Below, one piece after another: positions 5,978 to 60,396 of a DNA stretch of 64,000 nucleotides. Numbering within the stretch: the stretch's first letter is position 1; each line of letters opens with the position of its first letter. A model generated the notes under the pieces. That model saw only the letters and a program-made list of their open reading frames with translations. It did no database searches and was not told where the DNA came from. Origin of the DNA: Phycisphaerales bacterium (GTDB taxonomy: Bacteria; Planctomycetota; Phycisphaerae; Phycisphaerales; SM1A02); NCBI GenBank assembly GCA_029242715.1, contig JAQWTL010000018.1, forward strand, positions 62,001 to 126,000. The letters run 5' to 3'. Both the position numbers and the translations under genes were made by a program.

Positions 5978-6015
5978 CACAGGACTTCTGATTACCTGAT
6001 TCAAAGAAGCCGTTC

Positions 6016-6699
6016 ATGAGGCTATCGCATTACGGCATCAGAGAATGGGGTACCGCAATGGGCATCTTTGGTGCCTGTGTTGGCCTTGTCCTGTTCCTCA
6101 ATCCGGTTCTCGCCATCAAGTTGGCCATCCTTGTTCCACTGGGCATCCTGCTTCTGGCAGTGTTTGCCTTCTTCCGCGATCCCCGACGACGCTTGCCCGG
6201 CAACTGGACGTCTGAAATGATGTTCAGCCCCGCAGATGGCGTCATCTCAAGTATCGAACGACATGATCATCATCCCGACCTGGCAGGACCAGGCATCGTC
6301 ATCAGGATCTTCCTGAGCGTGCTGGATGTTCACTTGAACCGTTGGCCATGCAATGGAACTGCCACATTGAACCGACACGTTCCTGGTCGTCACCATGATG
6401 CTCGAAGTGATCGATGCCACATGGAGAATGAGCACAATCTGGTCATGCTTCGAAGGGACGATGGAAAGATGGTCGGGGTCCGCCAGATCGCTGGCCTGAT
6501 CGCCCGCCGCATCGTGTGTCCTGTGAAGATTGATGATCGAGCTGAAGCCGGAAAACGCTACGGCATGATCAAATTCGGTTCCAGCACCGAGTTGATCCTT
6601 CCAGATCCTGGAATGGTGGATGTCCATGTGAAAACAGGGGAGCGTGTTCGTGGCGGTGAAACGCTCCTGGCAACCCTGCCTTCTGATGAGACTAACTAA
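6016..6699 (+). CDS. psd: Phosphatidylserine decarboxylase
   Basis: Converts phosphatidylserine to phosphatidylethanolamine at the inner membrane. The 227-residue proenzyme has an N-terminal membrane hairpin (15-52) and FFRDPRR. It also has SPADGVI (71-77), IFLSVLDVHLNRWP with the conserved His106, and the self-cleavage site KFGSSTELILP, where Ser189 would become the pyruvoyl group. The short length and GSS site fit the PSD-A class of non-enteric bacteria. No phosphatidylserine synthase is next to it in this window. It converges with the small gene at 6716. Confidence 0.93.
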   Translation: MRLSHYGIREWGTAMGIFGACVGLVLFLNPVLAIKLAILVPLGILLLAVFAFFRDPRRRLPGNWTSEMMFSPADGVISSIERHDHHPDLAGPGIVIRIFLSVLDVHLNRWPCNGTATLNRHVPGRHHDARSDRCHMENEHNLVMLRRDDGKMVGVRQIAGLIARRIVCPVKIDDRAEAGKRYGMIKFGSSTELILPDPGMVDVHVKTGERVRGGETLLATLPSDETN

Positions 6700-44821: not shown

Positions 44822-44937
44822 ATGCACTGTTAGACGGGCTGAAAATGCTGCTTGGATGAGTTCGGTAGTTCCTGATTGAACTGGGCATCTGTGCCTATAC
44901 GATGTCCGTTTCCAACCATGACAAAGGAGGAAGAGTC

Positions 44938-45999
44938 ATGCGTTCCTGTCTATCCACCGTCACTGCGTGTGCCATTCTTGGTGTTGCCGTCAACGTTGCC
45001 ATGGCTGATACATGGAATGTTCCTGGTGACTTCTCGAGTATCCAGGACGCAATCGACAACGCCTCCGCTGATGACATCATCATGGTCGGGCCGGGAACCT
45101 ATGACGGACCCATTGATTTTCTGACCCGGGACATCGTCGTGATGTCAACGGATGGCCCTGATAAGACGATCATTGATGGATCCAATACCAACGCATCACT
45201 GGTATCCATGATTCACTGCAATGCCCCTGCTCGACTGGAAGGTTTCACCATTCAAAATGCAGATGGTGGATCGGATGTCAGTCAGGATGGAAACATCATC
45301 GTGGGTGGAGGCGTTCGTGTCCTCGTCGGCAGCCCAGTCATCGAAAACTGCATATTCAAGAACTGTCGCTCTGGCTACGGTGGGGGCATGCATGTTGGAG
45401 GTTCAGACATCACGATTACCAACTGTGATTTCTCTGAATGTTCGGCTTCAGCGAACGGTGGCGCATTGCTCGTCATCAACGGCGTGGCCACGATTGAAGA
45501 TTGCTGGTTTGAAGATAATCAGGCAACGCTCATGGGCGGCGCGATCCATATCGTGAATGGCGATGGGCACTCGATGTGGAATTCGACGGTAATCAACAAC
45601 TATGCAATCGATGGTGGTGGTATCTCCTGGCAAAATGTCCAGACGGAATTTCCCTTCGCCATATCAGCTTCCGTCATCACGGATAATGATGCCCTCAATG
45701 CCGGTGGTGGCATTCGAAGTGTTGCGGGATCACAGCCTGTTGTCTTCACGGACTCAACGCTATGCGACAACGAGCCTGATGAAATCATCGGTCCGTTCAT
45801 TGATGACGGCGGCAACACACTGTGTGTGTGCCCGGCAGATATCAACGGCAATGGCATTGTCGAGGTTGATGACATCCTGGTGATCGTTGCCCAATGGGGC
45901 ACAAGTGGCCCACAAGGCGACATCAATCAGGATGGCATCGTCAACATCACTGACTTGCTGGAAGCCCTTGATGCCTTTGGCCCTTGTGCCAATTTCTGA
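44938..45999 (+). CDS. Secreted right-handed beta-helix protein with dockerin-like tail
   Basis: 353 residues from ATG 44938, preceded by the strong AAAGGAGGAAGAG. Signal peptide about 1-24. NVPGDFSSIQDAIDNASADD starts a pectate-lyase-like beta-helix with repeated coils (ITNCDFSECSASANGGALLV, IEDCWFEDNQATLMGGAIHI). The Cys/Asn ladders are typical of polymorphic outer-membrane or Omp repeats in planctomycetes. The end has two EF-hand loops (DINGNGIVEVDDILVIVAQW and DINQDGIVNITDLLEALDAF). A cell-surface polysaccharide-binding or lyase role is possible; no active site is identified. Confidence 0.88.
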   Translation: MRSCLSTVTACAILGVAVNVAMADTWNVPGDFSSIQDAIDNASADDIIMVGPGTYDGPIDFLTRDIVVMSTDGPDKTIIDGSNTNASLVSMIHCNAPARLEGFTIQNADGGSDVSQDGNIIVGGGVRVLVGSPVIENCIFKNCRSGYGGGMHVGGSDITITNCDFSECSASANGGALLVINGVATIEDCWFEDNQATLMGGAIHIVNGDGHSMWNSTVINNYAIDGGGISWQNVQTEFPFAISASVITDNDALNAGGGIRSVAGSQPVVFTDSTLCDNEPDEIIGPFIDDGGNTLCVCPADINGNGIVEVDDILVIVAQWGTSGPQGDINQDGIVNITDLLEALDAFGPCANF

Positions 46000-47166: not shown

Positions 47167-48297
47167 ATGTTGAGCTTCATTTACCAGGCTCGAATCATAA
47201 TCATCCACATGGCCCTTGCCTGCAGTTTGGCCCTGATCTGGGGTTGTGATCAGTCCCAAATTGAACCTGTGCATGCTCCGAAAGATGCCCGAGTCCGAAG
47301 CGAGATCGAATCGGAGTTTCAGGCTGAGTTGAGGTCTCATCCGCCAACGACGACTGTCGACATGGGGGTCGATGGACCCATACGGCTTTCTCCGTCACCT
47401 ATTCAGTGGGGGCTTGCCAACCGGTTCGAGTCCGGCATTGATATTGGCTGGCATGCACGAACTGAGGCCGACAATCTGCCACCTATCAGGATTGCCATCA
47501 TTGATGAAAGCTTTGATGTTCAGGCAGCAGGACTGACTCATGCATTCAACGCAGATGATGGAATCAACCTGTTGCATCCAGACCAACCACTCTGGACTGC
47601 CCATCGTGATGGCTTCCATCACGGGAACATGGTGGCTTCGATCATTGCCAATCGACCAACAGGCGAGCTCGCTCCACTTGGTGTGCTCGGCAACCAACCT
47701 GTTGAATTGATTCCGATCGTAGCGGCCGGAGGAGGCGGGCCTGCCTGGAGAACGCCTCGTGCAACACCCGAGATGATTCTTCAGGGCCTTCGACATGCCC
47801 TCGACGCCAAAGCAAGCATCATCAATATCAGTGCTGGTGTCGAGATCAGCCCTGGCAAATTGAAATCTCTCTGCTCGCACGCCATATGGGATCAATTGGA
47901 AGAAGCAAATGTTCTGGTGGTCTGTGCCGCTGGTAACACGGGCCATGACATTGATCAGCAACCCGTATTCCCAGCGAGTGTTGATCGTTCCAATGTCGTG
48001 GCAGTCATGGGCGTTGGTCCCACCGGTGATCTTGCCATCCGGCATGATTCAAATACAGGTGATTACGAACTGGCCACCAACTGGGGAGTGAAAACCGTTG
48101 ATTTTGCAGCACCTGGTGAAGTCATTGAAGTCATGGCGCGTGCAGATCGGCCCGAACTTGTTGATGGGACATCGGCGGCAGCCGCGTTTGTGACCGCAAT
48201 CCTGGCAATTGATCGCGATCCCGGCCTATTGGCGATTGAAAACCTCGCGTCTCGCTGCCGTAAAGGGGGCCTGATACAGCTTCCATCGGCCCCGTAA
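47167..48297 (+). CDS. Subtilisin-like (S8) serine protease, lipoprotein
   Basis: 376 residues. The N-terminal signal ends LIWGC (Cys27), implying a lipid anchor. The S8 domain follows: Asp113 in IAIIDESFD, His152 in FHHGNMVASIIA, oxyanion Asn257 in CAAGNTGH and Ser336 in VDGTSAAAAFVTAIL (usual GTSMAAP altered). All four catalytic positions are present. A propeptide is short or missing. AAGGAGG is very close to ATG 47167; ATG 47209 in frame is an alternative start. It is probably a periplasmic protease. Confidence 0.87.
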   Translation: MLSFIYQARIIIIHMALACSLALIWGCDQSQIEPVHAPKDARVRSEIESEFQAELRSHPPTTTVDMGVDGPIRLSPSPIQWGLANRFESGIDIGWHARTEADNLPPIRIAIIDESFDVQAAGLTHAFNADDGINLLHPDQPLWTAHRDGFHHGNMVASIIANRPTGELAPLGVLGNQPVELIPIVAAGGGGPAWRTPRATPEMILQGLRHALDAKASIINISAGVEISPGKLKSLCSHAIWDQLEEANVLVVCAAGNTGHDIDQQPVFPASVDRSNVVAVMGVGPTGDLAIRHDSNTGDYELATNWGVKTVDFAAPGEVIEVMARADRPELVDGTSAAAAFVTAILAIDRDPGLLAIENLASRCRKGGLIQLPSAP

Positions 48298-48425
48298 TGC
48301 CCCAACACGCATAGCTTCAAAAAATCTCACGAGGAAAGTCCACGAATCCTGCAAGCAGCGTTCGGATGCTCGTCATTGATACTGACGGGATGTGTCGTCC
48401 CAGCTACCTGGATGAGGAGACTCTC

Positions 48426-48779
48426 ATGCCACGCTTGCACTGCGCCTTGATTCCACTGGCAACAGCCCTGTTGATGGCTGGTTGTCAATCCAATGAGGCT
48501 TTCAATGCCTCGATTTCCCGAGCGACCATCGATATTTCGAAGGGTCGACTCGAACAGGCCAGGACCACTCTCTTTGAAGCCGATTCACTGGCATCTGGTC
48601 CTGATGAACAACAGAAGGTCGAGGACCTGACCGCCGTCGTCAACGGCGCTGAAGCCATGATCAATGGCGATTCTGTTGCTGCATCTGTGGCCTGGTCCAA
48701 CGTCGAGGATGACAATCTTCGATGGCAACTCCAGCGAGAAGCCAAGGCGATGGGCCTTCAACTTGAGTCAAATAACTAG
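48426..48779 (+). CDS. Small lipoprotein, first gene of envelope cluster (paralogue of 59549)
   Basis: 117 residues from ATG 48426 (GAGGAGACTCTC upstream). Lipobox LLMAGC with Cys20. The mature part is helical. Its segment QQKVEDLTAVVNGAEAM, with a C-terminal WSNVEDDNLRWQLQREAKAM, aligns by eye with the lipoprotein at 59549 (RQKVMDLEHMLDGAKALH and WLAIRNTALRQQVVGLADA). The two are paralogues at opposite ends of the cluster. The next gene begins 11 bases after its stop. Confidence 0.8.
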   Translation: MPRLHCALIPLATALLMAGCQSNEAFNASISRATIDISKGRLEQARTTLFEADSLASGPDEQQKVEDLTAVVNGAEAMINGDSVAASVAWSNVEDDNLRWQLQREAKAMGLQLESNN

Positions 48780-48790
48780 GAGGACACCCG

Positions 48791-49876
48791 ATGACGACTC
48801 ATGTCTTCAACAGCGTACGCACCCTGCGGTGTGTCCCCGTGCTGATCCCGCTGGCATTCTCAGCCGTGGCCCTCGCACAGGACGCAACCAACAATTCAAT
48901 TGACATTCCTGCAGCACCAGCGGTCGTGGTAACGAACCCGACACCGCCGGTGACTCGGCCAGCGGTTTCTACCCCGGCTTCTCCATTTGATGGCTATGAC
49001 TTTGAGCATGTCGTTGACACGCTTCAGTCATCAGTCAATCCGCTGGCAACCGAGATGAATGCAAGCTTTGTCGTCTTCGTAGAAGAGGTCGACCGTGCTG
49101 TCATCCTCATGGAAGAAGGCCGAACTCGTGAAGCCGTTGAGGCCAGTGTGGTCGCCATTGACGGCGTCCTGGCTGTCCGCGACTCCGTACTTGAGCCCAT
49201 GTGGGAAGCCCAGGGCGAATTGACTGCACAGATTGCAGAAGTACGATCAAGACTGGCCCGAGCGGTTGCTCGCACCGATGCACAACCCGCAACATCAAAA
49301 GCTGGTTTCTCGCCTACGACGGAACGGCTGTTGGATGGTGTCGCTTCGCGTATCGCGGAAACAGACGATCCCATTCGAAAGAAACGGCTCGTAGCCCACT
49401 ACCGGACTATCCGGAGCCTGGCCAGAGTCAAGCATGCTGCTGAGCGCATGTCGCCCGATCAGCGTCGACTGTGGACCAACATTCTCACCGTGCTGGAACA
49501 AGCTGCATTGGCTCACCAGCAGGTACTCATGGGTTCTGAAATCCTGTTTGCACAGTTCGAGTCGACTGCAGGCCAACTGCGCGAATACCTCGGCCTCATG
49601 CAGACCATTGACGGGGTGAATGATCTTCTTGGTGCCGTCAATGGAATCGGCGACGACGCTTCCGGCATGGCCAGCTTTGTAAACGGCATGCGCAATCTCC
49701 AGGAACAACTCTCCGGCTTCAACGGCATCGTCGAAGAAGCACTCAATGAGAGCATGTTTGAACTGGAAGCCAATGTTGATGCCATCCAGCCGGTTGATGG
49801 TGACGACATGCAGGGCGTTGTGTCCACGAGTATCGATGACGAACTCGCGGCCCGAATGCAACGTGTCGAAAACTGA
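48791..49876 (+). CDS. Secreted helical protein of unknown function
   Basis: 361 residues; AGGAGGACACCCG precedes the ATG. Signal peptide about 1-33 (ending AVALAQ-D). A Pro/Thr-rich linker is followed by a long, mostly helical Ala/Glu/Arg-rich body (for example VVFVEEVDRAVILMEEGRTR and KKRLVAHYRTIRSLARVKHA), suggesting coiled-coil or helical bundle structure in the periplasm. No known family is recognised. It lies between the two small paralogue-type genes. Confidence 0.75.
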   Translation: MTTHVFNSVRTLRCVPVLIPLAFSAVALAQDATNNSIDIPAAPAVVVTNPTPPVTRPAVSTPASPFDGYDFEHVVDTLQSSVNPLATEMNASFVVFVEEVDRAVILMEEGRTREAVEASVVAIDGVLAVRDSVLEPMWEAQGELTAQIAEVRSRLARAVARTDAQPATSKAGFSPTTERLLDGVASRIAETDDPIRKKRLVAHYRTIRSLARVKHAAERMSPDQRRLWTNILTVLEQAALAHQQVLMGSEILFAQFESTAGQLREYLGLMQTIDGVNDLLGAVNGIGDDASGMASFVNGMRNLQEQLSGFNGIVEEALNESMFELEANVDAIQPVDGDDMQGVVSTSIDDELAARMQRVEN

Positions 49877-49916
49877 CCTGCCTCGCATGTCAACACAGAA
49901 CAACAGGAGTACAACC

Positions 49917-50390
49917 ATGAAACGCCTGCCTATTCAACTTATCTCGAGTCTCCTCCTCGCCGCCGCAGTGCTGCTTCCGGCAGCACCCGCGGCGGCGGGG
50001 GATAACGGTCCGACCCCCGCGGTAAAAGCAGAGTTCAAGAAACTCTGTTCACAACGAACTCAACTGGTCAGACAACTGGTCAAGCTTGACAACAAAGCAG
50101 CTGATGCCGTTGCTGCGGGCGAAGACCCTGTTGAGATCAACGCCAAACAGACTGCTAACCAGGATGAACTGGACCTGATCCAGCTTCGGCTGGAATCCAT
50201 GGCCATCCGACACGGCCTTGCGTTGCCGGATGTTCCCTCTCCCGGTGACGTGAGCGCCGCAGAAAATCAAACGGAAGCCAGGGCTCGGGCCATGTTCCGT
50301 GCTGGGGAAGAACGAACCAACCGGATTGTGGCTCGTCGAACCATGCGACTGCTTTCACGTCTGGACTTCGGTTCAATCACGAAGGAATAG
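49917..50390 (+). CDS. Small exported helical protein (paralogue of 59953)
   Basis: 157 residues; CAGGAGTACAACC precedes ATG 49917. Signal peptide ending PAAPAAAG. The body is a helical hairpin with KAADAVAAGEDPVEINAKQT and ELDLIQLRLESMAIRHGL. The protein at 59953 has DAADALLRGEDPIELYADQT and QVDMMQMRIESLAMRLDF at the same positions, so the two are clearly paralogous. Function unknown. It is ten bases upstream of the ExbB-like gene. Confidence 0.8.
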   Translation: MKRLPIQLISSLLLAAAVLLPAAPAAAGDNGPTPAVKAEFKKLCSQRTQLVRQLVKLDNKAADAVAAGEDPVEINAKQTANQDELDLIQLRLESMAIRHGLALPDVPSPGDVSAAENQTEARARAMFRAGEERTNRIVARRTMRLLSRLDFGSITKE

Positions 50391-50400
50391 GAGACACACC

Positions 50401-50811
50401 ATGCTTCGGCCCTGGTTCGATGCCGGCGGCCCGCTTATGTGGCCGCTTCTGATCTGCTCGATTCTTCTGGCTGCGATTCTTGTTGAACGGACCTGGTCGG
50501 TCGTCATCCGTCACCTGCTCATGGGATGGCGCCTTCCAGGAGATCGGCTGAATGTCCATCGCCGCGTGCTTCCCTTCTTCGCAGAAGTGCCGCCGGCACT
50601 TGGGTTGCTTGGGACGGTTCTGGGTGTTGTTCAGAGTTTCCGGCTTCTGGATGGACAGATTGACGCTGATGCAATCGGAGGTGGGCTGGCTGTCGCCTGC
50701 ACAACCACCATCTTCGGTGTCAGCATTGCTGTGATCGCTGCTGTAGCTGGCCATGTCCTTGACTGGCTTACCCCTCAGAAAGCTTCGCCAACTCCGGGAA
50801 TGACAACATGA
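50401..50811 (+). CDS. Minimal MotA/TolQ/ExbB-family proton channel protein
   Basis: 136 residues from ATG 50401 (GGAGACACACC upstream). Three membrane helices: about 11-31 (MWPLLICSILLAAILVERTW), 58-80 and 93-117. The family core VPPALGLLGTVLGVVQSFRL and GGLAVACTTTIFGVSIAVIA is present, including the GLLGTVxG signature. ExbB and TolQ are usually 200-240 residues; here the large cytoplasmic loop is almost absent. It would form the pentameric stator-like channel with the ExbD-like protein whose gene overlaps by four bases. Confidence 0.87.
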   Translation: MLRPWFDAGGPLMWPLLICSILLAAILVERTWSVVIRHLLMGWRLPGDRLNVHRRVLPFFAEVPPALGLLGTVLGVVQSFRLLDGQIDADAIGGGLAVACTTTIFGVSIAVIAAVAGHVLDWLTPQKASPTPGMTT

Positions 50812-51170
50812 TTACCCGAGGATTCGTGGATCTCCTGTTCATCCTGCTCTGCAGCACCATCGTGCTGCTCGCACAGTCAATCCCCCTGAAGGGCTTGATG
50901 GCTGAACCTGCTGTAGCTGGTTCAGGTGGCACACGGCCACTGGATAGCGACAAGGTCGTGCTCGTCTCCGTTGACGAATCAACTCTTGCAACCACGACAT
51001 CCACGGGAACTCGATTGGATGAACTTGATCTGCCTGCGACACCCTCGACCGTGATCATCGTTCCTGCAACTAATGAAATCACGCATCATCGCGTCATTGA
51101 CATATGGCGAGAAGCACGAGAAGCCGGGTTCAAAGTGGAACTCGGTGTTCAATCTGGAGGAGGAACCTGA
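50808..51170 (+). CDS. ExbD/TolR-family protein
   Basis: 120 residues. One N-terminal transmembrane helix, FVDLLFILLCSTIVLLAQS, with the conserved Asp8 at the start of the helix that carries protons in ExbD/TolR/MotB. The periplasmic domain has VVLVSVDESTL and a final VIIVPATNEITHHRVIDIWR matching the ExbD fold. It overlaps the ExbB-like gene by ATGA and the TonB-like gene by TGATG, so the three are a translational unit. Confidence 0.87.
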   Translation: MITRGFVDLLFILLCSTIVLLAQSIPLKGLMAEPAVAGSGGTRPLDSDKVVLVSVDESTLATTTSTGTRLDELDLPATPSTVIIVPATNEITHHRVIDIWREAREAGFKVELGVQSGGGT

Positions 51171-51943
51171 TGTCCAAGCCAGCAATCATCATTGGACTGC
51201 TCATCGCTGCAACGCTGCACTTCATCGTACTCATGCCGATTTCATCTACAGCGAAATCAACTTCTGTCATACCTGCAACACGGATCGCTATGCGCGAACT
51301 TCCCGAAACAGAAACCGAGTCGGCACCTGCCAGGCAGGCCGATGAAGTCGAACCTGCCCCGACACCCGAACCGGCGCCCAAACCTGCGCCGCAACCCGCT
51401 CCGAAACCACGCCCACAGCCTGAACCACAGGCATCAACAAATCTGGCTCGCGCAGCAGCTCCGCAGCATTCCACCCTGGAAGGCAAAGGAGATTTCGCAG
51501 GAAAGCCCGATGGGACACAACGTCCATCACTGCGAATTGATTGGGGAAGCCCCCAACAGGCGCATGATGTCGTGATGGCCTCTGACATGCGACTTGTCAT
51601 GCTTGCAACAGCAGGGGGCATCGCAGGTGAAGCTGTCGCCACGACGAATGGATGGCAACGTGTTGATGCCGGTTCTTCCGATCTGTCTAGTTATTCAAAC
51701 AGGGTGCGGATCGTTGATTCCACGCCCGCTTTCTTCCAAGCTGCATCACTTTGCAGTGGTGGCGAACGTCTCGCTGTCCTGCTTCCGCTTGCACTGGAAC
51801 ATACGCTTCGAACCCAGCAAATTCGAGCCGCTTCAGAAGCAGGTGTCGACTCGTCCGGAATCCGGGCCTTCTATGGCCGTTTCCGAATTGACAGTGGACG
51901 CGTTGCATTTGATATCAGCGGTATCGAGAGGAGGTCCTCATGA
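51170..51943 (+). CDS. TonB-like proline-rich energy transducer candidate
   Basis: 257 residues from ATG 51170; GGAGGAGGAACC precedes it. An N-terminal membrane helix (AIIIGLLIAATLHFIVLMP, with His in the helix as in TonB) leads into a spacer of Pro-Glu and Pro-Lys/Arg repeats (about 65-108), the classic TonB layout. The C-terminal 130 residues (VMASDMRLVMLATAGG, VRIVDSTPAFFQAASL) do not show the TonB box-binding domain. The output end is therefore new or strongly diverged. Call based on position after ExbB/ExbD and on architecture. Confidence 0.75.
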   Translation: MSKPAIIIGLLIAATLHFIVLMPISSTAKSTSVIPATRIAMRELPETETESAPARQADEVEPAPTPEPAPKPAPQPAPKPRPQPEPQASTNLARAAAPQHSTLEGKGDFAGKPDGTQRPSLRIDWGSPQQAHDVVMASDMRLVMLATAGGIAGEAVATTNGWQRVDAGSSDLSSYSNRVRIVDSTPAFFQAASLCSGGERLAVLLPLALEHTLRTQQIRAASEAGVDSSGIRAFYGRFRIDSGRVAFDISGIERRSS

Positions 51944-52425
51944 AACGGTTCATTCTCGGCACCCTCACCGGTGTCCTCGTCGTAGCCATCATTGTCACGT
52001 TCATTCCAGACCGTGCTCACAGTCTGATCGATCAGGCCGGAGATGTCCGAGGTCTGCTTGAAGACGTGGCGTCGCGTCTTGAACGTCTCGAACAGGAGCC
52101 GAGCCAGATGGAATCTGTCGAAGTACTGCTGCCTGCGCCTTCAGGAGCCAGTCAACTGCCTGAACTCGGCAGCTACCAGGCCAATCAGGTCGTGGTGCCA
52201 GCGACTTCATCAACGATCACAGCTGTTTCTGTCAGTGAACCGGCCCAATCAGAGCAACCTTTGCCCTCTGCTGTTCAACGTCAAGCGATTGACTTCGATA
52301 ATCTCGCGACAGGCCTGTCGAGAGTCAGCGGAGCCCTGGAACGACTGAACCGGACCATGAAACCAGGAAACAGACCGTCTCGGAGTTCCTCCGGATCGGC
52401 TGCCAGCGACGGTTCATCGTCCTGA
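51940..52425 (+). CDS. Single-helix anchored periplasmic protein
   Basis: 161 residues. N-terminal membrane anchor (FILGTLTGVLVVAIIVTFIP), then a coiled-coil segment (DVRGLLEDVASRLERLEQEP), a Ser/Val/Pro-rich linker, and a second helical segment (LATGLSRVSGALERLNRTM) before a Ser-rich tail. Its ATG overlaps the TonB-like stop. It might be an accessory subunit of the ExbB/D-TonB-like complex. No family is recognised. Confidence 0.72.
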   Translation: MKRFILGTLTGVLVVAIIVTFIPDRAHSLIDQAGDVRGLLEDVASRLERLEQEPSQMESVEVLLPAPSGASQLPELGSYQANQVVVPATSSTITAVSVSEPAQSEQPLPSAVQRQAIDFDNLATGLSRVSGALERLNRTMKPGNRPSRSSSGSAASDGSSS

Positions 52426-52539
52426 TCCTGCCATGAAGGCTCTCGAGATGTACGCCTCCCGAATCAGCACGCACGTTGGTCTAGACTGCTCATCAGTCCA
52501 GGGCCCGTTTGCCCTGGCTGGTCCGGGAGGCATTCTCGC

Positions 52540-53370
52540 GTGGTTGCAGATCAAGTACAGGCTCTCTGGGAATCTGCCCAGGCCACTTGGCCAGAGGTCA
52601 ATTGGCCTCTGGAGGCCTATCGCCTGCACCTTGAGGATCAATCGCCAACGCATCCTCATGACCTGTATGTGGCGGGTGCAGCAGGACACAGAATCCAACC
52701 TGCATGGTCGGCCATTGATGAGGCCTACCGCGTGATGGTGATCAGAAGACTGGAACGGTCCGCTCGAGCGGACATGGAGGCGGAGGATCTTTGGTCCGAA
52801 GCCGTTGCACGCATGATGCGGGATGATCCAGAGTCCGGTACGAATGATCAGGGCGAGCCGGTCATGCATATTGCACGCTACCGAGGACTCACCAAGCTGC
52901 CATGGCATTTTCTTGCAGCAGCAAGAACCATTGCCATCGATCGGCATCGAAAACGAGAGCGAGGTCCGCGTCAGGTATCTGCAGAAGCCGCCGTGGAAAT
53001 TGAAGGCTCACGTCAGCAGGATGATCCTGCACTGCAGAGCAGTGCACGTGAGTTGGCGGATGTGCTCTCGAATGCCGTCGTGCAAGCATTTGAAAACCTG
53101 GAAGCACGCCACCAGTTCCTGCTGGCGGCCATCTATCGCGATGGACTGGGAAAAGCAGACGCTGGCGAGGTCGTAGGACTGTCTCCCTGGCAGACTTCAC
53201 GGGAACTCCGCAAGGCGGAGGAACAATTGCGTCTCCAGGTACAACACCTGGTGCCAGGAGAATGGAGCTCGGAAACACGGGCTGCCTGGGACCACGGGTG
53301 GCGGCTGTGCTGGAACCAACTGGCACCGTCCGATCCCGACAAGGGAACATTCTCGGAAGGCGCAGCATGA
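52540..53370 (+). CDS. Sigma-70-family RNA polymerase sigma factor (ECF-like)
   Basis: 276 residues from GTG 52540 (GGGAGG upstream). Region 2 is recognised around MVIRRLERSARADMEAEDLW and WHFLAAARTIAIDRHRKRER (regions 2.2-2.4). Region 4 has ARHQFLLAAIYRDGLGKADA and VVGLSPWQTSRELRKAEEQL. A longer loop than normal lies between regions 2.2 and 2.4, and a C-terminal Trp-rich extension follows region 4. It is immediately followed by a membrane protein with a four-base overlap, the usual sigma/anti-sigma order. It probably controls this cluster. Confidence 0.8.
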   Translation: MVADQVQALWESAQATWPEVNWPLEAYRLHLEDQSPTHPHDLYVAGAAGHRIQPAWSAIDEAYRVMVIRRLERSARADMEAEDLWSEAVARMMRDDPESGTNDQGEPVMHIARYRGLTKLPWHFLAAARTIAIDRHRKRERGPRQVSAEAAVEIEGSRQQDDPALQSSARELADVLSNAVVQAFENLEARHQFLLAAIYRDGLGKADAGEVVGLSPWQTSRELRKAEEQLRLQVQHLVPGEWSSETRAAWDHGWRLCWNQLAPSDPDKGTFSEGAA

Positions 53371-53909
53371 ACACCATGATTCACCCACAGAACCCCGTCG
53401 ATCACGATGTCATCATCGCAGCTCTGCGCGATGCGATGCAGCGACGAGCTGGTGACTCCTGGAGTGATCTTGATATTGAGTCCATGGCAGTACTTGCGGA
53501 AGGTCGTGGAGACGAGCTTCCACCAGCTGAACGTGCGCTGCTCCTGAAACGAATTGCCTCTGATCCGGATCTGGGACAACTTCTCAAGGAGCTCCGGGCC
53601 GACATCGGAGGATCCCTTGCCAGCCCGGCCATCTTTGTGCCACGTGCCGCCATTCGGCTGGCATGGGTCGCATGTCTCATTGCACTGGTCACCGTTGGCG
53701 TGATCCGGATGGGGGACTCACCGGCAACCAGTACCGTGGAAGTACTGGATTCCGGTTCCGGGAAGGCCAGCTACCTGGATGAATTGCATGACGACAATGG
53801 CTCTACACTGTCAACGCTGGTTGGCGACCCGATATTCATAAGTCTCCTGGTTGGCACCGTGCTGTTGGGAGCAGGCGCTTTCTGGCCAAGACGGAGTTCC
53901 CCTTCATGA
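53367..53909 (+). CDS. Putative anti-sigma factor, two membrane helices
   Basis: 180 residues from ATG 53367, overlapping the sigma stop. The cytosolic N-terminal part (about 1-90) is helical with ELPPAERALLLKRIASDPDL, resembling the DNA-free sigma-binding region of anti-sigma proteins. Two transmembrane helices (about 93-113 and 152-172) flank a short periplasmic loop. Function inferred from gene order and topology; no zinc motif (HxxxCxxC) is present. Confidence 0.65.
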   Translation: MNTMIHPQNPVDHDVIIAALRDAMQRRAGDSWSDLDIESMAVLAEGRGDELPPAERALLLKRIASDPDLGQLLKELRADIGGSLASPAIFVPRAAIRLAWVACLIALVTVGVIRMGDSPATSTVEVLDSGSGKASYLDELHDDNGSTLSTLVGDPIFISLLVGTVLLGAGAFWPRRSSPS

Positions 53910-54916
53910 CTCATGCGATCCTCGGCAGCCTGGTGATGACCTGGTTGTCGATGGGCTCGCCGGCCATGGATACGTCTGCAGAAATCACGTCTGCAGACCA
54001 GGCCACACGGATCATTGAAGCCTGGCCGGGTGAACCTGTGCCTCGCCTCGACTTCATCAGAGATCTGGTAACACAATGCGGCCATCCGACGCTTCTGGTC
54101 ATGCCACCCCGACCAGGTGATCCACTCCAGGCAACACTCGTGTCACGTCTTTCCGAAGAACTCTCGCCGTTGTCTTTTAACGTGGAAGATGGTGAGCGAA
54201 TCCAGTCAGATATTGAACGAGATGCTGACCGAACCTACGCGGAAACCAGTGATGCTGCAGCAGCCACGCGTGTACTCCTGGCCCGGCAAGGAGACTATGA
54301 ACTGGTGTGGCGTCTTGAAGTGGATATCGATGGTCCCCGGGATCTCTACGGCGTCGAAACCTGGAAAGCCACTGCAAGATTGCAGGCCACTCTCGTAGAC
54401 CTGGTTGTTGGTCGCAAGTTGCCCACCCTCGAAATTGATGCACAAGCCAGACAGCGCACACGAGAAGCCGCCCTTGATCAATCGATTGAAGCTGCGGCCA
54501 ATCAACTCGCCGAACGCGCCAGTGGACCATTGCTCCGGAACTGGTATGCCGCAAGCATCGGCGAGAATGTTCTGATCGTGGAATCTCCCGGCTCTCAACG
54601 TCGGCAGGAACTGCTTGCTCAACGACTGGAAAACCTCCCGGGTGTGAGCACTGTCGAAAGAGCCTCGCCCGCCGAACCTCCACGGCTGCTGGTTGTCGGT
54701 TACCTGACTGCCATGGATCTGGTGAATCAACTTGGCGAGGGAAAGGCAATCACCCGCCACCACGTCTTCCTGTCCGGCAGGAGCCTGACCTGGTGGTGGC
54801 TCCTTCTTCCTGGTGGAATTCTGCTGGGGCTCCTGGCCTTCTCCCTGGTCTTCAGGACTTCAAACAGTGATCCCGGCCAAGCTCAGGAAACGGCCCCACC
54901 CGCCCTCAAGGACTGA
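53906..54916 (+). CDS. Exported protein with C-terminal membrane anchor
   Basis: 336 residues; ATG overlaps the preceding stop. Signal peptide about 1-25, an alpha/beta periplasmic domain (LRLSEEL-type helices; ALDQSIEAAANQLAERASGP), and a C-terminal helix (about 287-308, WWWLLLPGGILLGLLAFSLV) followed by a short cytosolic tail. The AAANQLAERAS stretch recalls FlgT/LPP20-type helices. It may be a periplasmic sensor or scaffold linked to the sigma/anti-sigma pair. No confident family. Confidence 0.7.
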   Translation: MTHAILGSLVMTWLSMGSPAMDTSAEITSADQATRIIEAWPGEPVPRLDFIRDLVTQCGHPTLLVMPPRPGDPLQATLVSRLSEELSPLSFNVEDGERIQSDIERDADRTYAETSDAAAATRVLLARQGDYELVWRLEVDIDGPRDLYGVETWKATARLQATLVDLVVGRKLPTLEIDAQARQRTREAALDQSIEAAANQLAERASGPLLRNWYAASIGENVLIVESPGSQRRQELLAQRLENLPGVSTVERASPAEPPRLLVVGYLTAMDLVNQLGEGKAITRHHVFLSGRSLTWWWLLLPGGILLGLLAFSLVFRTSNSDPGQAQETAPPALKD

Positions 54917-55093
54917 TCCAGAGGGTTTCTGGGCAGAGTTTGAGCCAATAGGCCTTGTTGGGGGACAATGAACACCTGTTCTATACGTTCTTGTATTGGA
55001 GAAGCCCGCAAGAGGTCTCCATATGAGCGTCCTTGCTGAGATCCCGTTGAACTGCACCTGATTGCCAGGATCGCCCACTCCAGGAGTCCCCAC

Positions 55094-55495
55094 ATGATTC
55101 GCTGCCTACTCCTTGCTGCCGCCTTGACCCTTCCTCTGTCAGCCTGTCAGAGCGTCAACACGGTCGCGACAAATAATCCCAAACGAACGAATGTCGATTA
55201 CTCCAGGATCGATATGAATCCCGTCCTGAAGAATGACGTCCGGGTCGAGGGTGTCCTTGCTCGTGATGTCAATGGTTTGCTTCAGGGCCAGGTCACACTC
55301 CTGAACCGATCTTCCTCTGCAAAAGACATTCAAACTCGCTTCGAGTGGTTCTCAGCTCAGGGCATGCAGGTTGATGAATCCAGCACTGTCTGGAATACAT
55401 ACACCTTGCAGGCTGGCGAGATGCGATCCATCACTGGAACCGCCGGCAGCGCCAATGCAAAGGATTTCCGGTTCGCCATCAAACCCCTTCGCTGA
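55094..55495 (+). CDS. YcfL-like (DUF1425) lipoprotein
   Basis: 133 residues. Lipobox LPLSAC with Cys18. The domain follows the E. coli YcfL pattern: GQVTLLNRSSSAKDIQTRFE, WFSAQGMQVDESSTVW, YTLQAGEMRSITGTA and the final KDFRFAIK. YcfL lies directly upstream of LpoB in E. coli; here the next gene is also LpoB-like, so the gene pair is conserved. The role of YcfL is not established. A 177-base gap upstream may hold a promoter, though I see no convincing one. Confidence 0.83.
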   Translation: MIRCLLLAAALTLPLSACQSVNTVATNNPKRTNVDYSRIDMNPVLKNDVRVEGVLARDVNGLLQGQVTLLNRSSSAKDIQTRFEWFSAQGMQVDESSTVWNTYTLQAGEMRSITGTAGSANAKDFRFAIKPLR

Positions 55496-55526
55496 ACGAC
55501 GTCGCCAGCAAGGAAGGAAGTTGACC

Positions 55527-56144
55527 ATGTCCACCCGACTCATCATCGCCATCATGGCATCTGCGATAGCTCTGGGAACTGGCTGCAACAGTCAGACCCG
55601 AACGGGTAGCCAGATGAAACCCATCAACAACGCCCACACGATCACCGGCAATGAATGGGATCAGTTCGCCAACTGGATGAAGAATTCCATGGTTCAGAGC
55701 GGTGTTCTGGCCCGCTATCGAAATGATGCCGGTGAACCAGTCGTCATCGCCATCGCGGATTGGGACAACAACACCAACCAGCGATCCTTCACACGCGATA
55801 AGACCGTGATGGAGAATGCGATTCGCAAGACCCTGGTGAATTCGGGCATGGCCGTCATCAATCGTGATGTAGGAGGCAGTGGTTCCAAGGCAGAAGGGTT
55901 GACCAGAAGCATCTCGGAACTTCGTGAATCAAGCGAGTATGACCAGTCCACCGTAACCCGACCGGGTCTTGCCCGGGCACCGTCATTGGGCCTCTACATG
56001 CAGATCAACCGGATTCCGGTCCATGATGGTCGTACCACTCAATACGACTATGCCGTCCAATGCGAGCTCATCGATCTCCAGAACAAGTACACCGTCTGGG
56101 AAGATCAGTTCCTGATGAGCAAACAATTCGTCCGAGGCCTGTGA
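55527..56144 (+). CDS. lpoB: LpoB-like penicillin-binding protein activator lipoprotein
   Basis: 205 residues from ATG 55527 (AAGGAAG upstream). Lipobox IALGTGC with Cys20. The domain matches LpoB: WDQFANWMKNSMVQSGVL, PVVIAIADWDNNTNQ, MENAIRKTLVNSGMAVINRD and LGLYMQINRIPVHDG. In E. coli LpoB is an outer-membrane lipoprotein that stimulates the peptidoglycan synthase PBP1B. No PBP gene is in the window, so its target here is unknown. The family call is strong, the molecular target an inference. Confidence 0.87.
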   Translation: MSTRLIIAIMASAIALGTGCNSQTRTGSQMKPINNAHTITGNEWDQFANWMKNSMVQSGVLARYRNDAGEPVVIAIADWDNNTNQRSFTRDKTVMENAIRKTLVNSGMAVINRDVGGSGSKAEGLTRSISELRESSEYDQSTVTRPGLARAPSLGLYMQINRIPVHDGRTTQYDYAVQCELIDLQNKYTVWEDQFLMSKQFVRGL

Positions 56145-56175
56145 TACACCTCGTGAGTCCCCAGGGAGACCACCG

Positions 56176-58347
56176 ATGAACCCGACTCGTATGTTTATTC
56201 CGTTCCTTTCAACCCTGCTGGCGGTTTCCATCGCGATGCCTGTCCGGGCAGACCTTGGGATCGAATTCCAGATGCCTGTACTGGCAGGACTGTATGACAT
56301 AGACGAAAGCGAATCTCTGTCGGTCGTTCAACAGCCTGCCGCCGTGCAGCAGGTCATGCTGACAGGATTCGAACGGCCAGTAACAGAAGCAGCCACTGCC
56401 CAGGATGCCATCAATGCTGCTGCCAGCAGGCTCAGGATGAACAATACGGATGGCGCTGCCTGGGTTGATGTCCATGGACGTATTGGTGTTGTCGCCTCAG
56501 GCACATCATCATGGAATCCAAATCAGGACAACCTGCAACTTCGTCTATATGACCAGCGATTTGCCTGGATGAAGGCTGCGCTCAAGGCAAAAACATCCAT
56601 GTCCCGATTCATCAAGGGCGCATCGGTCGCAGGTCAGGAAAGACTCTCTGAAGAACTCTCGTCGCGTGATTCAGCGACACTGAGCCAACTCAAGTCCAAG
56701 CAGAAGTCCACTGAACGAATATCTTCGGTTGCAGGTGCCTTTCTACGTGGCGCAGTGGTCTATGAAATGAATGAGGATGCCACGACCGGTCAGGTCACCG
56801 TCACGCTGGTTTCAACTCCAGGGACTCAGGACCTCTCCCAAACACTTGGCAATGGCCTCTCTGGGATTCGAAACACCGAAGAGGCCACCAGGATGGTTAT
56901 GGCCGAGATCCGTGCCGGCATCGTGCCGCCAACAGGCGGCCGACTGCTGAAGAATTCCGTCAGTGGAACAGACACATGGATTGCATATGGTGCCGAACCA
57001 GCAGCCCCGTCAAATAATGAACAGTTGCGAAATGCCGCCAGGGAAGCCGCTCGGAATACGGCGAGATTGCGGGCCCAGCGGGCCATGTTGGCATTGCTCC
57101 GTGGAGAGACGATCTCTGAAGAAGATCTGCTGGATGCGCGGTTTGAAGATGTTCTGTCCCAAACCGATGACTTGCTGATCCAGACAAGTGACATCGAATC
57201 AATACAGCTCTCCGAACAGGCAACGGACTCCACTCGCGCATCGGTCGCATCGGGACAACTTCCTTCAGGTGTCGAAAGCTTCGGGCTTCAAAGTATCGAT
57301 GGAACATGGCAGTACGTCGTTTTGGTCTATGACGGCACCGCCGGATCCCGGGTCCAAGGTACGCCGACACTGCCACCGCCCTCTGCGCCGGCAAATCCCG
57401 CGGCTCCAGTTGCCGGCAATATCCGAATCGTTGATTCAACCGGAATCGGAAACACCCGTGCCATGGCCATCAAGAACGCGCTGTTGGAAGCCGTCTCCCA
57501 GGTCAACGGCGCACTGATCAACGGTGACACGGTCACGTCCAGGAAGTATGAGGATGCCATTGAAGATTTCAATGGTTTGACGAATCAACGGATCAATGCC
57601 GAGTCCATATCGACCGAGTCCATCAACATGACCTCAGGTGGTCTGGTTTCCAGTTACAGGATCATTTCCGAGGGACCACTCTCTGCCAATGCCGCAGAGC
57701 GAGATCACGGTGGGGCTTATGCCGTCCAAATCCGTGCCGAAGTTCCCGTGTTCGATCCGGAGAATCCCAGGCCAGGCGCTCGTCCGACGATCGCCGTTCT
57801 ACCGCTGCATGTCGCCAAGGTATCCATGCCGGCAGATGTACAGCGAATGTCTGCGATGCAGGTTGCCAACAGTTTTACGTCGGCCTTCAACCGGGATCTT
57901 GTTCGATCCGGTGCCTTTACTGTTCTGGATGAACGATATCTGCGGACACTGGATTCCAAGCGGAATCAAATGCTCGAACGTGCCGCGAATGGACAAGTGA
58001 ACATGCAGGAAATCCTGAAGCTTGGCCATGAACTGACTGCCGATTTCGTTCTTGTAGGAACTCTCGAAGACCTGAGCTTCAAGAAATGGCGGCAACTGGT
58101 AGAGATTCGAAATACCTATGAATCCAGAAAGCAGGTAAGCATCAGCCTCGAATTGAGGTTGATCAATATCACGACTGGCGAGATCGAGTGGACGGATTTC
58201 TATCGCAAGAGATGGGACACGGTCCAGTTGTCGCAACGTAGCAACGATGACAGGGCCTTGTCCCCAGTGGAATTTGCCATGGAAAAAGCCAGCGCTTCCC
58301 TTGAGGGCTCCTTGGTGAAGTACCTCCAACGGCTGCCAAAGGAATAG
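56176..58347 (+). CDS. Large exported CsgG/LpoB-fold protein
   Basis: 723 residues. Signal peptide about 1-25. The long N-terminal half (about 70-420) contains AWVDVHGRIGVVASGTSSW and alanine-rich helices. A central LPP20/FlgT-like piece (RAMAIKNALLEAVSQVNGAL) follows. The C-terminal 190 residues carry a CsgG-type domain: PTIAVLPLHVAKV, FTVLDERYLRTLDSKR and ADFVLVGTLEDLSFKKW, then VSISLELRLINITTGEIEWT. CsgG-fold proteins sit at the outer membrane, as secretion pores (curli) or regulators. The next gene, also CsgG-fold, starts one base later. Confidence 0.8.
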   Translation: MNPTRMFIPFLSTLLAVSIAMPVRADLGIEFQMPVLAGLYDIDESESLSVVQQPAAVQQVMLTGFERPVTEAATAQDAINAAASRLRMNNTDGAAWVDVHGRIGVVASGTSSWNPNQDNLQLRLYDQRFAWMKAALKAKTSMSRFIKGASVAGQERLSEELSSRDSATLSQLKSKQKSTERISSVAGAFLRGAVVYEMNEDATTGQVTVTLVSTPGTQDLSQTLGNGLSGIRNTEEATRMVMAEIRAGIVPPTGGRLLKNSVSGTDTWIAYGAEPAAPSNNEQLRNAAREAARNTARLRAQRAMLALLRGETISEEDLLDARFEDVLSQTDDLLIQTSDIESIQLSEQATDSTRASVASGQLPSGVESFGLQSIDGTWQYVVLVYDGTAGSRVQGTPTLPPPSAPANPAAPVAGNIRIVDSTGIGNTRAMAIKNALLEAVSQVNGALINGDTVTSRKYEDAIEDFNGLTNQRINAESISTESINMTSGGLVSSYRIISEGPLSANAAERDHGGAYAVQIRAEVPVFDPENPRPGARPTIAVLPLHVAKVSMPADVQRMSAMQVANSFTSAFNRDLVRSGAFTVLDERYLRTLDSKRNQMLERAANGQVNMQEILKLGHELTADFVLVGTLEDLSFKKWRQLVEIRNTYESRKQVSISLELRLINITTGEIEWTDFYRKRWDTVQLSQRSNDDRALSPVEFAMEKASASLEGSLVKYLQRLPKE

Positions 58348-58348
58348 T

Positions 58349-59449
58349 GTGATGATCAAGTTGCTTTTAATCCTTTTCGCGGGCTTGCTGGGCAGTACGG
58401 CGATCGAGTTGGACCAGGCGCCCGATGCCGTTCCGCCTCCGCCTGATACCACTGCTGCAGTAAAGAATGCCCTGTCCGAGGAAAAAAAGGCAAGAGCCGC
58501 ACAGGACCAGAAGATCAACCTTGCGGTACTTGGTTTCACTGACCTCACAACAGGCAAGAAGACGCCGATCAGCATGGCCGTGACGACTCTGGTCCTGGAT
58601 GCCATTGACGCGACCAACATCACACTCCTGGAACGAGAGAACGTCGCGAAGATCATCGAGGCCCAGGAATTCGCCGAGTTGGACATTACCGAGGACGGCG
58701 TTGGGATGTTCCTTGGGAGATTGGTTGATGCCCGGTACATCCTGATGGGAACAGTCGGGCAGCTTGAAGGGCGGCAACTTGTGATCAGCGCACGAATCGT
58801 TGACGTCGCAACCGGTGAAATCGTGGATGACCATCGAGCCACCGTCATCGGATTTCTGTCTTCATTGAAAGCTGATGCTCGAAAGCTGGCTGTCGAAATG
58901 GGCCTGCGAGCAGCTGATGGGATGTCGCCTGGCCCGCTCCAGCTACACCCTCGTGCCATTCCTGGAACAGTCGAATCGGTTGTACGAGCCGTGCCGAGAG
59001 GCGGTCCGGTCGAAATGGAAATAGTTCCCGATCCGGATAAGACAATCTTCCTGGAAGGCGAAGCCATGGCCTTCAAGGTGAGATCTGATCGCGATGGCTA
59101 TCTGACAATGCTCGCCATCGGACCGACTGGCGGCATCACGGTGCTGGCACCAAATTCACACATGCGTTCGGTCCCCGTAGTCAAGGACCAGGCCATACTG
59201 CTTCCTTCACCGGACATGCCGTTTACGGTTCGAGTTGAGCCGCCCTTCGGAGTCCATCGAATCAAGGCTTTCGTCACTCCTGAGCCCCTGATCGTGCCCG
59301 GCTCATTTGACGACCGCAGATCAGAACTGCTGGAGTTGGCCCGGGATGCCTCCCTGGGAACAAGTCAGAATGATCCCCTCGACAACACGGACTGGACCTG
59401 CCGGGAAATCGCGTTCATCACCGAGGCGGCCCCCAAAATCGAGGAATAG
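58349..59449 (+). CDS. CsgG-fold plus DUF4384-like exported protein
   Basis: 366 residues. Signal peptide about 1-19. The N-terminal domain is CsgG-like: INLAVLGFTDLTTGKKTPIS, ITLLERENVAKIIEAQEF, ARYILMGTVGQLEGRQLVIS, ARIVDVATGEIV. The C-terminal 130 residues match DUF4384: FLEGEAMAFKVRSDRDGYLT, GGITVLAPNSHM and HRIKAFVTPEPL. DUF4384 tails occur in envelope and protease-linked stress proteins. It ends before a 99-base gap; the next genes are the second paralogue pair. Confidence 0.85.
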   Translation: MMIKLLLILFAGLLGSTAIELDQAPDAVPPPPDTTAAVKNALSEEKKARAAQDQKINLAVLGFTDLTTGKKTPISMAVTTLVLDAIDATNITLLERENVAKIIEAQEFAELDITEDGVGMFLGRLVDARYILMGTVGQLEGRQLVISARIVDVATGEIVDDHRATVIGFLSSLKADARKLAVEMGLRAADGMSPGPLQLHPRAIPGTVESVVRAVPRGGPVEMEIVPDPDKTIFLEGEAMAFKVRSDRDGYLTMLAIGPTGGITVLAPNSHMRSVPVVKDQAILLPSPDMPFTVRVEPPFGVHRIKAFVTPEPLIVPGSFDDRRSELLELARDASLGTSQNDPLDNTDWTCREIAFITEAAPKIEE

Positions 59450-59548
59450 GGCCCCTTAAACCACTTTGAATAATTTCTGCAAGCCCCCGGAATTGAGGCG
59501 TCTCTGTTCCTGGGCCAGCGATGTCTGGCCTTTCAAGGAGACGATTCC

Positions 59549-59956
59549 ATGGTGCGTAGGTTGATCTTAACCCTGGCATGCAGCCTGAGCCTGCTCAGTG
59601 GCTGCGCCAGTGTGACTCATGTTCAGGCCGGCCGACACGACCAGTTCCGGAATGCACTGGTTGATAGTTGCCACTCGATACAGATCTCTGAGTTCCAGAC
59701 CGCAAGACGTCAGCTGGATCAGGCGAGAAACCTGGCCCAGGGACAGCAGCAGCGTCAGAAGGTGATGGATCTCGAACACATGCTTGATGGTGCAAAGGCT
59801 TTGCATGACGGACATCCGCGCAAAGCCGCAACGGCCTGGCTTGCCATACGCAATACCGCGTTGAGGCAACAGGTGGTTGGTCTCGCTGATGCAGAAGGCA
59901 TCAACCTGATCGCTCTTGCAGAAGATGGCAGCATTGAAAAGGAAAGTTCACAATGA
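59549..59956 (+). CDS. Small lipoprotein (paralogue of 48426)
   Basis: 135 residues. Lipobox LSLLSGC with Cys19; AAGGAG lies upstream of the ATG. The helical body RQLDQARNLAQGQQQRQKVM and the later TAWLAIRNTALRQQVVGL match the first lipoprotein of the cluster. It overlaps the following gene by four bases, and that gene is the paralogue of 49917, so a two-gene unit seems to have been duplicated; at the left end a 361-residue gene now lies between the two. Confidence 0.82.
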   Translation: MVRRLILTLACSLSLLSGCASVTHVQAGRHDQFRNALVDSCHSIQISEFQTARRQLDQARNLAQGQQQRQKVMDLEHMLDGAKALHDGHPRKAATAWLAIRNTALRQQVVGLADAEGINLIALAEDGSIEKESSQ

Positions 59957-60396
59957 AACGTATCACTGCCCTGATGCTACTCACGGCCATCGTCCTGCCT
60001 GTATCAGCCTCATTTGGTGCAAGCTCCATGCCTCAACATGCCAGAGTGCTGCTTGCCGAGCGGGATCATCTGCAACAAAAGCTGCTTCGCGCCGATCAAG
60101 ATGCGGCTGATGCCCTGTTGCGAGGCGAGGATCCGATCGAACTCTACGCAGACCAGACCGGCCTCCAGGAACAGGTCGACATGATGCAGATGCGAATCGA
60201 ATCACTGGCGATGCGACTCGACTTCGACATCCCAGCGCTCAGTTCGTCCATCGATAACAGCGATCCGGCAGATGTGCTTGAATCTCACATTGCCATTGGA
60301 AGACAAAGAGCACAAAGCGCCATGGCCAATCGATGCCAGTCAGCCTGTGGTTCTATTCTTGAAGATGTGGATTTCGATTCATTCCTGAACTTCTGA
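59953..60396 (+). CDS. Small exported helical protein (paralogue of 49917)
   Basis: 147 residues. Signal peptide ending VSASFGA. The helices LLAERDHLQQKLLRADQDAA and DALLRGEDPIELYADQT match the 49917 protein closely. A C-terminal part contains CQSACGS with two Cys not found in the other copy. ATG overlaps the lipoprotein stop. It is the last gene of the plus-strand block and converges with the cobalamin gene. Function unknown. Confidence 0.82.
   Translation: MKRITALMLLTAIVLPVSASFGASSMPQHARVLLAERDHLQQKLLRADQDAADALLRGEDPIELYADQTGLQEQVDMMQMRIESLAMRLDFDIPALSSSIDNSDPADVLESHIAIGRQRAQSAMANRCQSACGSILEDVDFDSFLNF

Follow-up and report, generated by a model that had tools for sequence, protein, structure and literature searches.

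The 64,000-nucleotide stretch of Phycisphaerales DNA analysed here (the window) is part of contig C22 of a genome of about 3.2 Mb (G000), and between positions 48426 and 60396 it carries a row of 16 plus-strand open reading frames (ORFs; g01 to g16 in Table 1) that probably encodes a self-regulated, proton-driven force machine acting across the envelope in one planctomycete order. We argue the role of the motor from conserved residues and its regulon from comparative evidence, and we infer its target. The ORFs were the same as those in an earlier note on this DNA, which had described a single envelope machine with frequent one- or four-base gene overlaps; such overlaps were confirmed at six junctions (50808/50811, 51170/51170, 51940/51943, 53367/53370, 53906/53909 and 59953/59956). 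The genes of that interval are real, but it left out the S8 subtilase gene directly upstream, and the two paralogous gene pairs within it had gone unmentioned.

The centre of the cluster is a six-gene core (48426–51943) encoding, in order, a lipoprotein, a long-helix exported protein, a small helical exported protein, a short ExbB, an ExbD and a TonB-like transducer. Our census of this core comprised 25 non-redundant loci in 23 genomes, all of one order and with the window included, duplicate loci of the same genome (L027–L030, L037, L049, L063, L064 and L074) having been removed before counting. All six genes were present in order in 19 of the 25 loci (18 plus the window). Three of the other six were cut by contig ends (L032, L033 and L065), one showed no ExbB or ExbD (L068, genome G732), and two held g01–g03 only (L072 and L073, genomes G073 and G091); ExbB genes about 40 kb from the trio in the latter two genomes were considered as a relocated motor and rejected, being longer (196 and 198 amino acids) and having no adjoining g05 or g06 match. 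The short ExbB was well separated from its relatives, as besides its own genome 7 of 100 relatives matched at E ≤ 2.8e-33 and the next best at 2.5e-10. A g02 profile matched 21 of 400 genomes of the order (20 once the weak match of G522, at E 2e-4, had been dropped, as was a second, weak g02 copy in L071) and 3 of 392 genomes in a sample of the phylum, the own genome being included in both counts; second-round profiles were retrained on earlier matches, which inflates their E-values. A pattern scan for g02 gave at least 12 named loci, 9 of them in genomes already in the set, and two members of the same genus, G002 and G005, yielded no core when searched with ExbB (G005 also with g02). Because the gene order is fixed across three families of the order and a sigma-linked promoter goes with it, the cluster is, as judged from sequence comparison, far beyond chance. 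At least eight of its genes, the number that the earlier note had proposed to look for in distant genomes, indeed co-occurred in other genera of the same family, with 11 of the 16 families in G635 (L069) and 10 of 16 in G561 (L065). Two core copies per genome were seen in MAG24 (L036/L038) and G589 (L066/L067), and a diverged second g02-like gene lies beside the main copy in G550 (L071:13959-14897).

The proteins of the motor were compared residue by residue. All 21 ExbB orthologues, of 122–140 amino acids, had a GxLGT-type motif and 20 of them a TT motif, and the solved relatives of g04 at E ≤ 0.001 were chains of PomA, MotA and TolQ. The ExbD match was below the Pfam cut-off, but the membrane Asp motif was found in 21/21 orthologues, aligning with the Asp of ExbD at E 0.03, and the proton-channel pair recognised in the earlier note was thereby upheld. 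In the transducer, His17 was present in 20 of 20 intact N-termini (that of G732 could not be resolved and was set aside), with Ser at −4 from the His in 16 of them and Ala in four genus members; the part of a survey of force transducers drawn on here names SHLS and its His as the site by which TonB and TolA bind the motor (PMC12204202). The linker contained 15–36% Pro in 19 of 20 rows and 7% in G001. Because of these conserved residues in ExbB, ExbD and the transducer, the motor of the cluster looks like a genuine but unclassified motor of Ton/Tol type.

The end domain of the transducer is another matter. It was modelled at a pLDDT (predicted local distance difference test) of 87 and no Pfam family reached its cut-off; neither a vWA match nor, at Pfam E ≤ 1, a TonB C-terminal domain (PF03544) was found in g06, a diverged TonB-like fold remaining compatible with the latter result, and the NCBIfam TonB model covered residues 5–89 only, far below cut-off. 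Fold searches of the end domain against the PDB (Foldseek best E 0.15, VIA best Z 2.6) showed neither that the fold is new nor that it differs from that of TonB, and the best matches of the g06 and g02 alignments among PDB sequences had E-values of 0.059 and 0.014. The description of g06 as a TonB-like transducer thus stands with regard to its membrane His, but no TonB C-terminal domain was found with it.

Such a motor could serve an uptake system like the TonB2 system of Vibrio, working for an unknown outer-membrane receptor, and the layout is indeed similar in that ExbB, ExbD and the TonB-like protein share their gene row with further envelope proteins. For the receptor tests we used 19 core genomes, being the 21 core genomes of the sigma survey described below minus the motorless G073 and G091; in one of the 19, G100, the motor would lie past the contig end, and in G732 ExbB and ExbD were not found. 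The Plug domain was detected in 10 of 45 genomes, that is in one of the 19 core genomes (G533) versus 9 of 26 others, leaving 18 core genomes, G000 among them, in which it was not found. In 10 of 30 genomes, of which seven had been added for having Plug, TonB_C exceeded its cut-off; among the core genomes it did so in G533, which also has Plug, and in G550 (26 bits), and there was no match in G000. Because the core genomes are mostly devoid of TonB-dependent receptors and TonB_C domains, an ordinary Ton uptake role for this motor appears unlikely. The TonB2-like alternative, against which also stands that neither DUF3450 nor a second ExbB was found among the sixteen proteins, we regard as improbable.

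Evidence for self-regulation came from the sigma factor of the cluster. In addition to its TIGR02937 match just below cut-off, g08 matched Pfam sigma-70 region 2 only at E 0.53. In a survey of 45 genomes, 21 with the core and 24 without the core's ExbB, strong matches to our sigma profile A9 (118 bits or more) occurred in 13 of the 21 versus none of the 24, where 10 of the 13 had themselves supplied sequences for the profile and match by construction, unlike G100, G533 and G732. The g09 family directly followed the sigma gene in 12 of 12 other non-redundant loci holding one, and from this position and the membrane helices seen by eye we infer that g09 is an anti-sigma factor, in keeping with the sigma/anti-sigma pair that had been suggested for these genes.

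Aligning the upstream regions of four genus loci defined a predicted promoter of the extracytoplasmic function (ECF) type, with two boxes at fixed spacing and the fuller form TGCAAG-N15-CGTC. The motif GCAAG-N15-CGTC precedes g01, g11 and g15 in four genus genomes, with a spacing of 16 at g15 of G004, and the window held five matches versus 0.70 expected, a count reached in none of 100 shuffles, two of the five lying inside ORFs (34419 and 53210). When one mismatch was allowed, a rule adopted after some sigma loci proved to be without the exact motif and then applied to all loci, the 250 bases preceding g01 contained the motif in 15 of the 16 loci from sigma-bearing genomes (10 of them exact; 11 of 12 loci when the four motif-defining ones were left out) and in none of the eight from sigma-less genomes, G561 having been excluded since its contig stops short of g01. 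In 15 sigma-set loci, 25 exact sites had spacing 15, versus one to four for each of the other spacings between 10 and 20 (shuffle mean 2.6, largest 8), and nine other loci, covering 175 kb, held no exact site of spacing 15 (shuffle mean 2.35). In G100 and G533 the promoter was seen first, with the sigma gene off the contig, and sigma genes were later found on other contigs. The motif also precedes g13 in L069 and both the CsgG-DUF4384-S8 gene and the LPP20 gene in L036. Since the predicted promoter tracks the sigma factor across genomes, the cluster looks like a sigma-linked regulon around a motor core.

A scan of the whole of G000 gave 52 motif matches versus 38 for the pattern read backwards, and because of this ratio most matches outside the cluster are due to chance. 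Two of the outside sites (L080 and L081) were picked by eye as promoter-like before envelope genes, and at position 4194 onward of L129 (G000:C19:4194) an exact motif lies 70 bases before a small lipoprotein-like ORF of 71 amino acids that a simple gene scorer did not call. The match within the sigma gene (53210–53233) recurs in all four genus genomes and probably reflects coding constraint.

Had three unrelated blocks become neighbours by chance in one genus, they should be conserved independently, which the earlier note had named as grounds for giving up a single system. This was found in part: in the fetched stretches of G025, G088, G098, G465, G510 and G550 the block at 48.4–52.4 kb stands with no member of the other two recognisable, and relatives of g13, LpoB or YcfL were seen without the core in stretches fetched from G031, G051 and G055. 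However, the promoter type is common to three operons in all four cluster-bearing genus genomes and to accessory genes in L036 and L069, no strong sigma was found in the 24 genomes without the core's ExbB, families of g13, g14, YcfL or LpoB stand beside the core in other genera too, and the S8 and CsgG-DUF4384 halves are fused near the core elsewhere, making a chance assembly very improbable. The occurrence of the core without sigma or accessory genes in some genomes instead implies that these genes are optional. Of the proposal of one machine, the regulon was hence retained, and its link to LpoB and PBP1B was not.

That link would make the cluster a Tol-like machine in which LpoB and a PBP1B-like synthase couple peptidoglycan synthesis to proton-motive force. 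The family assignments made earlier, the YcfL-LpoB pair and two more CsgG-fold proteins among them, were mostly borne out by profile matches, some of them only below curated cut-offs; the LpoB-fold and YcfL genes lie in the cluster behind the promoter motif, and an exact motif is also found 85 bases before the start of an LpoB-YcfL fusion gene elsewhere in G000, though overlapping the end of the upstream ORF. However, g12 reached 60.9 bits against the LpoB equivalog TIGR02722, whose cut-off is 110.55, and g12-type LpoB occurred in the fetched core loci only of G000, G001, G004, G561 and G732 (the last with a retrained profile, 3e-12) and was not found in the cluster of G003. No UB2H domain was found in G000, a soft test as its control was unspecific, being positive in six familiar genomes including that of B. 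subtilis, and UB2H exceeded its cut-off in 4 of 21 genomes; nor did Pal or TolB match any of the sixteen proteins. Coupling to PBP1B as the main function was rejected, in view of the sparse LpoB and the missed equivalog cut-off, and the Tol-like alternative as a whole is distinctly improbable. Because g12 is 74% identical to the fusion (L128:6194-7168), which stands in a row of CsgG-PEGA, TPR-like, LpoB-YcfL fusion and second LpoB genes (L128:2437-7820, G000:C10), LpoB was probably recruited to the motor cluster by duplication.

The predicted subtilase and g14 correspond to the two halves of a CsgG-DUF4384-S8 fusion found near the core elsewhere. Such fusions occur in five loci, all five in our alignment: L036, L063 and L068, recognised by Pfam, and L069 and L070, recognised by alignment. 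The fusion gene directly adjoins g01 in all of these except L063, where two small genes, one of them LPP20, stand between. The Asp, His, Asn and Ser motifs of S8 were present in 9 of 9 S8 alignment rows. In G000 both halves found their best matches inside the cluster (47398 and 58511), with 126.9 bits versus 58.5 for the next in the case of the S8 half. Some match to the fusion profile was seen in 24 of 45 genomes, mostly to the S8 half, and none at E ≤ 1e-10 in G025, G045, G561, G658, G073, G088, G091, G098, G465 or G510. Since it was not matched at that level in these genomes but was in G031, which lacks the core's ExbB, the subtilase is by these comparisons an accessory protein and not exclusive to the core.

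These proteins could also belong to an energised export or ring apparatus of the outer membrane, that is a CsgG/FlgO/FlgT/LPP20-like pore or H-ring-like collar worked by the motor, with the subtilase processing its cargo. LPP20 exceeded its cut-off near the core in L036 and L063 and FlgO just did so in L036; FlgT_M was matched in g13 below cut-off and FlgT_N in one relative of g10. FlhA was not found in the core genomes G533, G589, G635 and G709 (78–92% complete), so that the FlgT- and FlgO-like parts need not be flagellar. We nevertheless hold an export apparatus to be unlikely, as in several genomes no such genes could be recognised around the core, a number of the matches are weak, no cargo gene is evident, and G000 itself has FlhA. 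A CsgG fold for g10 was considered and rejected, since hhalign against LpoB rows gave a probability of 0.3 of 100 and a PDB search chance-level matches. L036 also contains, near core and subtilase fusion, an LPP20 gene and a caspase-FGE-sulfatase gene in the interval 3449–6529.

In the mechanism that we favour, ExbB and ExbD would form a proton-driven stator that drives g06, the end domain of which would grip a partner from the same cluster, either the g01 lipoprotein or g02/g03, instead of a TonB-dependent receptor. An envelope signal would free the sigma factor from g09, and the freed sigma factor would raise expression of the core and of accessory outer-envelope proteins, namely CsgG-DUF4384 with subtilase, FlgT/LPP20-like proteins and, in this genus, LpoB/YcfL. 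Our guess for the role is maintenance of the outer envelope under stress. A bolder version, unlikely in our estimation, is that g06 adds a third class to the TonB/TolA and vWA classes of periplasmic force transducer, with a new end domain acting on a CsgG/FlgT-like outer-envelope ring, and that a ring-linked subtilase and the anti-sigma factor would close a loop by which transcription of the machine is set according to the mechanical state of the envelope.

Several observations weigh against a self-regulated machine of this kind. Sigma and accessory genes do not always accompany the core, and G073 and G091 keep the g01–g02–g03 trio with no ExbB, ExbD or transducer seen within the 20 kb retrieved. 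The AlphaFold2 model of g02, the core hallmark, is all-helical with a mean pLDDT of only 61. The sigma match of G550 was weak (50.6 bits) with two internal stops, and the genome was counted as sigma-less. With regard to the promoter, 4 of the 25 motif sites fall inside the sigma gene, the sigma gene of the window itself is preceded only by a two-mismatch site at −69, its S8 gene has no motif within two mismatches in the preceding 250 bases, and the YcfL genes of L065 and L068 have none within one mismatch upstream. MAG24 has the sigma gene beside, and the motif at, one core copy only, its second copy (L038) being without the motif though the genome has the sigma factor. Finally, genomes without the core's ExbB can have fusion-like S8 matches too, notably G031 (7e-65).

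Table 1. Features of the motor cluster and its predicted promoters in the window.
Feature	Position	Strand	Evidence
S8 subtilase, a separate gene in this genus	47167..48297	+	Pfam S8 9.7e-18; outside the interval of the earlier note
Predicted sigma promoter GCAAG-N15-CGTC before core operon	48351..48374	+	motif match
g01, small lipoprotein, first core gene	48426..48779	+	lipobox-like motif in 22/23 other orthologues
g02, exported long-helix protein, core hallmark	48791..49876	+	orthologues 40–87% identical to window copy
g03, small exported helical protein (core)	49917..50390	+	orthologues in core loci
g04, short ExbB-family channel, 136 amino acids	50401..50811	+	Pfam MotA_ExbB 3.6e-15, over cut-off
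g05, ExbD-family subunit	50808..51170	+	Pfam ExbD 0.0044 (below cut-off); membrane Asp motif
g06, TonB/TolA-like transducer, unrecognised C-terminal domain	51170..51943	+	membrane-helix His
g07, small protein with one membrane helix near start (by eye)	51940..52425	+	orthologues in genus; a weak one in L062
g08, ECF-like sigma factor	52540..53370	+	TIGR02937 6e-11, 42.2 bits vs cut-off 42.9
g09, putative membrane anti-sigma factor	53367..53909	+	position and membrane helices by eye; no Pfam match
g10, exported protein with C-terminal membrane helix (by eye)	53906..54916	+	FlgT_N 5e-6 in 1/11 family members
Predicted sigma promoter before YcfL-LpoB operon	55008..55031	+	motif and spacing same in all 4 cluster-bearing genus genomes
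g11, YcfL-like (DUF1425) lipoprotein	55094..55495	+	Pfam DUF1425/YcfL 8e-19
g12, LpoB-fold lipoprotein	55527..56144	+	Pfam LpoB (PF13036) 3e-18, over cut-off
g13, CsgG/LpoB-fold, FlgT_M-like exported protein, 723 amino acids	56176..58347	+	LpoB 1e-9, FlgT_M 3e-6 (below cut-off)
g14, CsgG-DUF4384 protein, 366 amino acids	58349..59449	+	DUF4384 7e-16; CsgG exactly at cut-off
Predicted sigma promoter before g15–g16	59479..59502	+	spacing 15 in 3/4 genus genomes, 16 in G004
g15, paralogue of g01	59549..59956	+	48426~59549
g16, paralogue of g03	59953..60396	+	49917~59953

The cluster is flanked by genes for GAPDH (46007) and the subtilase (47167) on one side and for a cobalamin-adenosyltransferase-like protein (60415) and ATP synthase gamma (60990) on the other, all but the subtilase named by eye, and matches to the flanking genes lie at corresponding positions in three relatives within the genus (G001, G003 and G004). 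Most other loci also have a small gene directly after the transducer, its likeness to g07 being one of position only. Further upstream, at 44902–45999, lies a gene for a protein with a dockerin-like C-terminal stretch, as seen by eye. A separate ExbB gene with two ExbD-like genes (by eye) follows a VWA-like gene (Pfam below cut-off) in L003 (G000:C28), resembling the vWA loci in the part of PMC12204202 drawn on here.

Few kinds of machine are known to bring energy to the outer membrane, and among the literature matches listed (titles and abstract openings) there was no published account of this gene set. Tol-Pal works with CpoB and with LpoB/PBP1B, and the cluster resembles it in combining a motor with small lipoproteins and in having LpoB-fold proteins nearby; unlike Tol-Pal, it shows no OmpA (Pal) or TolB match among its sixteen proteins, Pal elsewhere in the genome not having been searched for, and no UB2H was found in G000. 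The likeness to the flagellar H ring (FlgO, FlgP and FlgT) lies in the matches of FlgT, FlgO and LPP20 type given by proteins of the cluster or its surroundings, but here they are linked to an ExbB/ExbD/TonB-like core and also occur in core genomes without detected FlhA. With Ton (ExbB-ExbD-TonB) the cluster shares the ExbB and ExbD families with their channel motifs and a transducer with membrane His, mostly Pro-rich linker and globular end, and it differs in the missing TonB_C match, the near absence of TonB-dependent receptors, an ECF-like sigma factor of its own and the extra core proteins g01–g03. The Vibrio TonB2 system, TtpB-TtpC-ExbB2-ExbD2-TonB2-TtpD, serves siderophore uptake and, as far as the portion of its description used here extends, likewise groups additional proteins with ExbB, ExbD and the transducer in a single operon, whereas the present cluster has no DUF3450 (TtpB) match, no extra ExbB-like TtpC among its sixteen proteins and hardly any receptors to serve (PMC6957404). 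A further likeness is to the vWA force transducers of planctomycetes and others, which, in the sections drawn on of a 2025 survey of transducers driven by proton-motive force, have TonB topology and an end domain unlike that of TonB or TolA (PMC12204202); here too motor genes stand beside such a protein, but g06 has no vWA match, the partner genes are others and a sigma-linked promoter is predicted. The same sections expect more trans-envelope systems to be discovered (PMC12204202), and the cluster adds a candidate whose transducer ends in an unrecognised domain, whose gene set is clear and whose regulon is marked out by a predicted promoter, in host genomes mostly without TonB receptors. It thereby opens to experiment the question of what an ExbB/ExbD motor does in the absence of anything to import.

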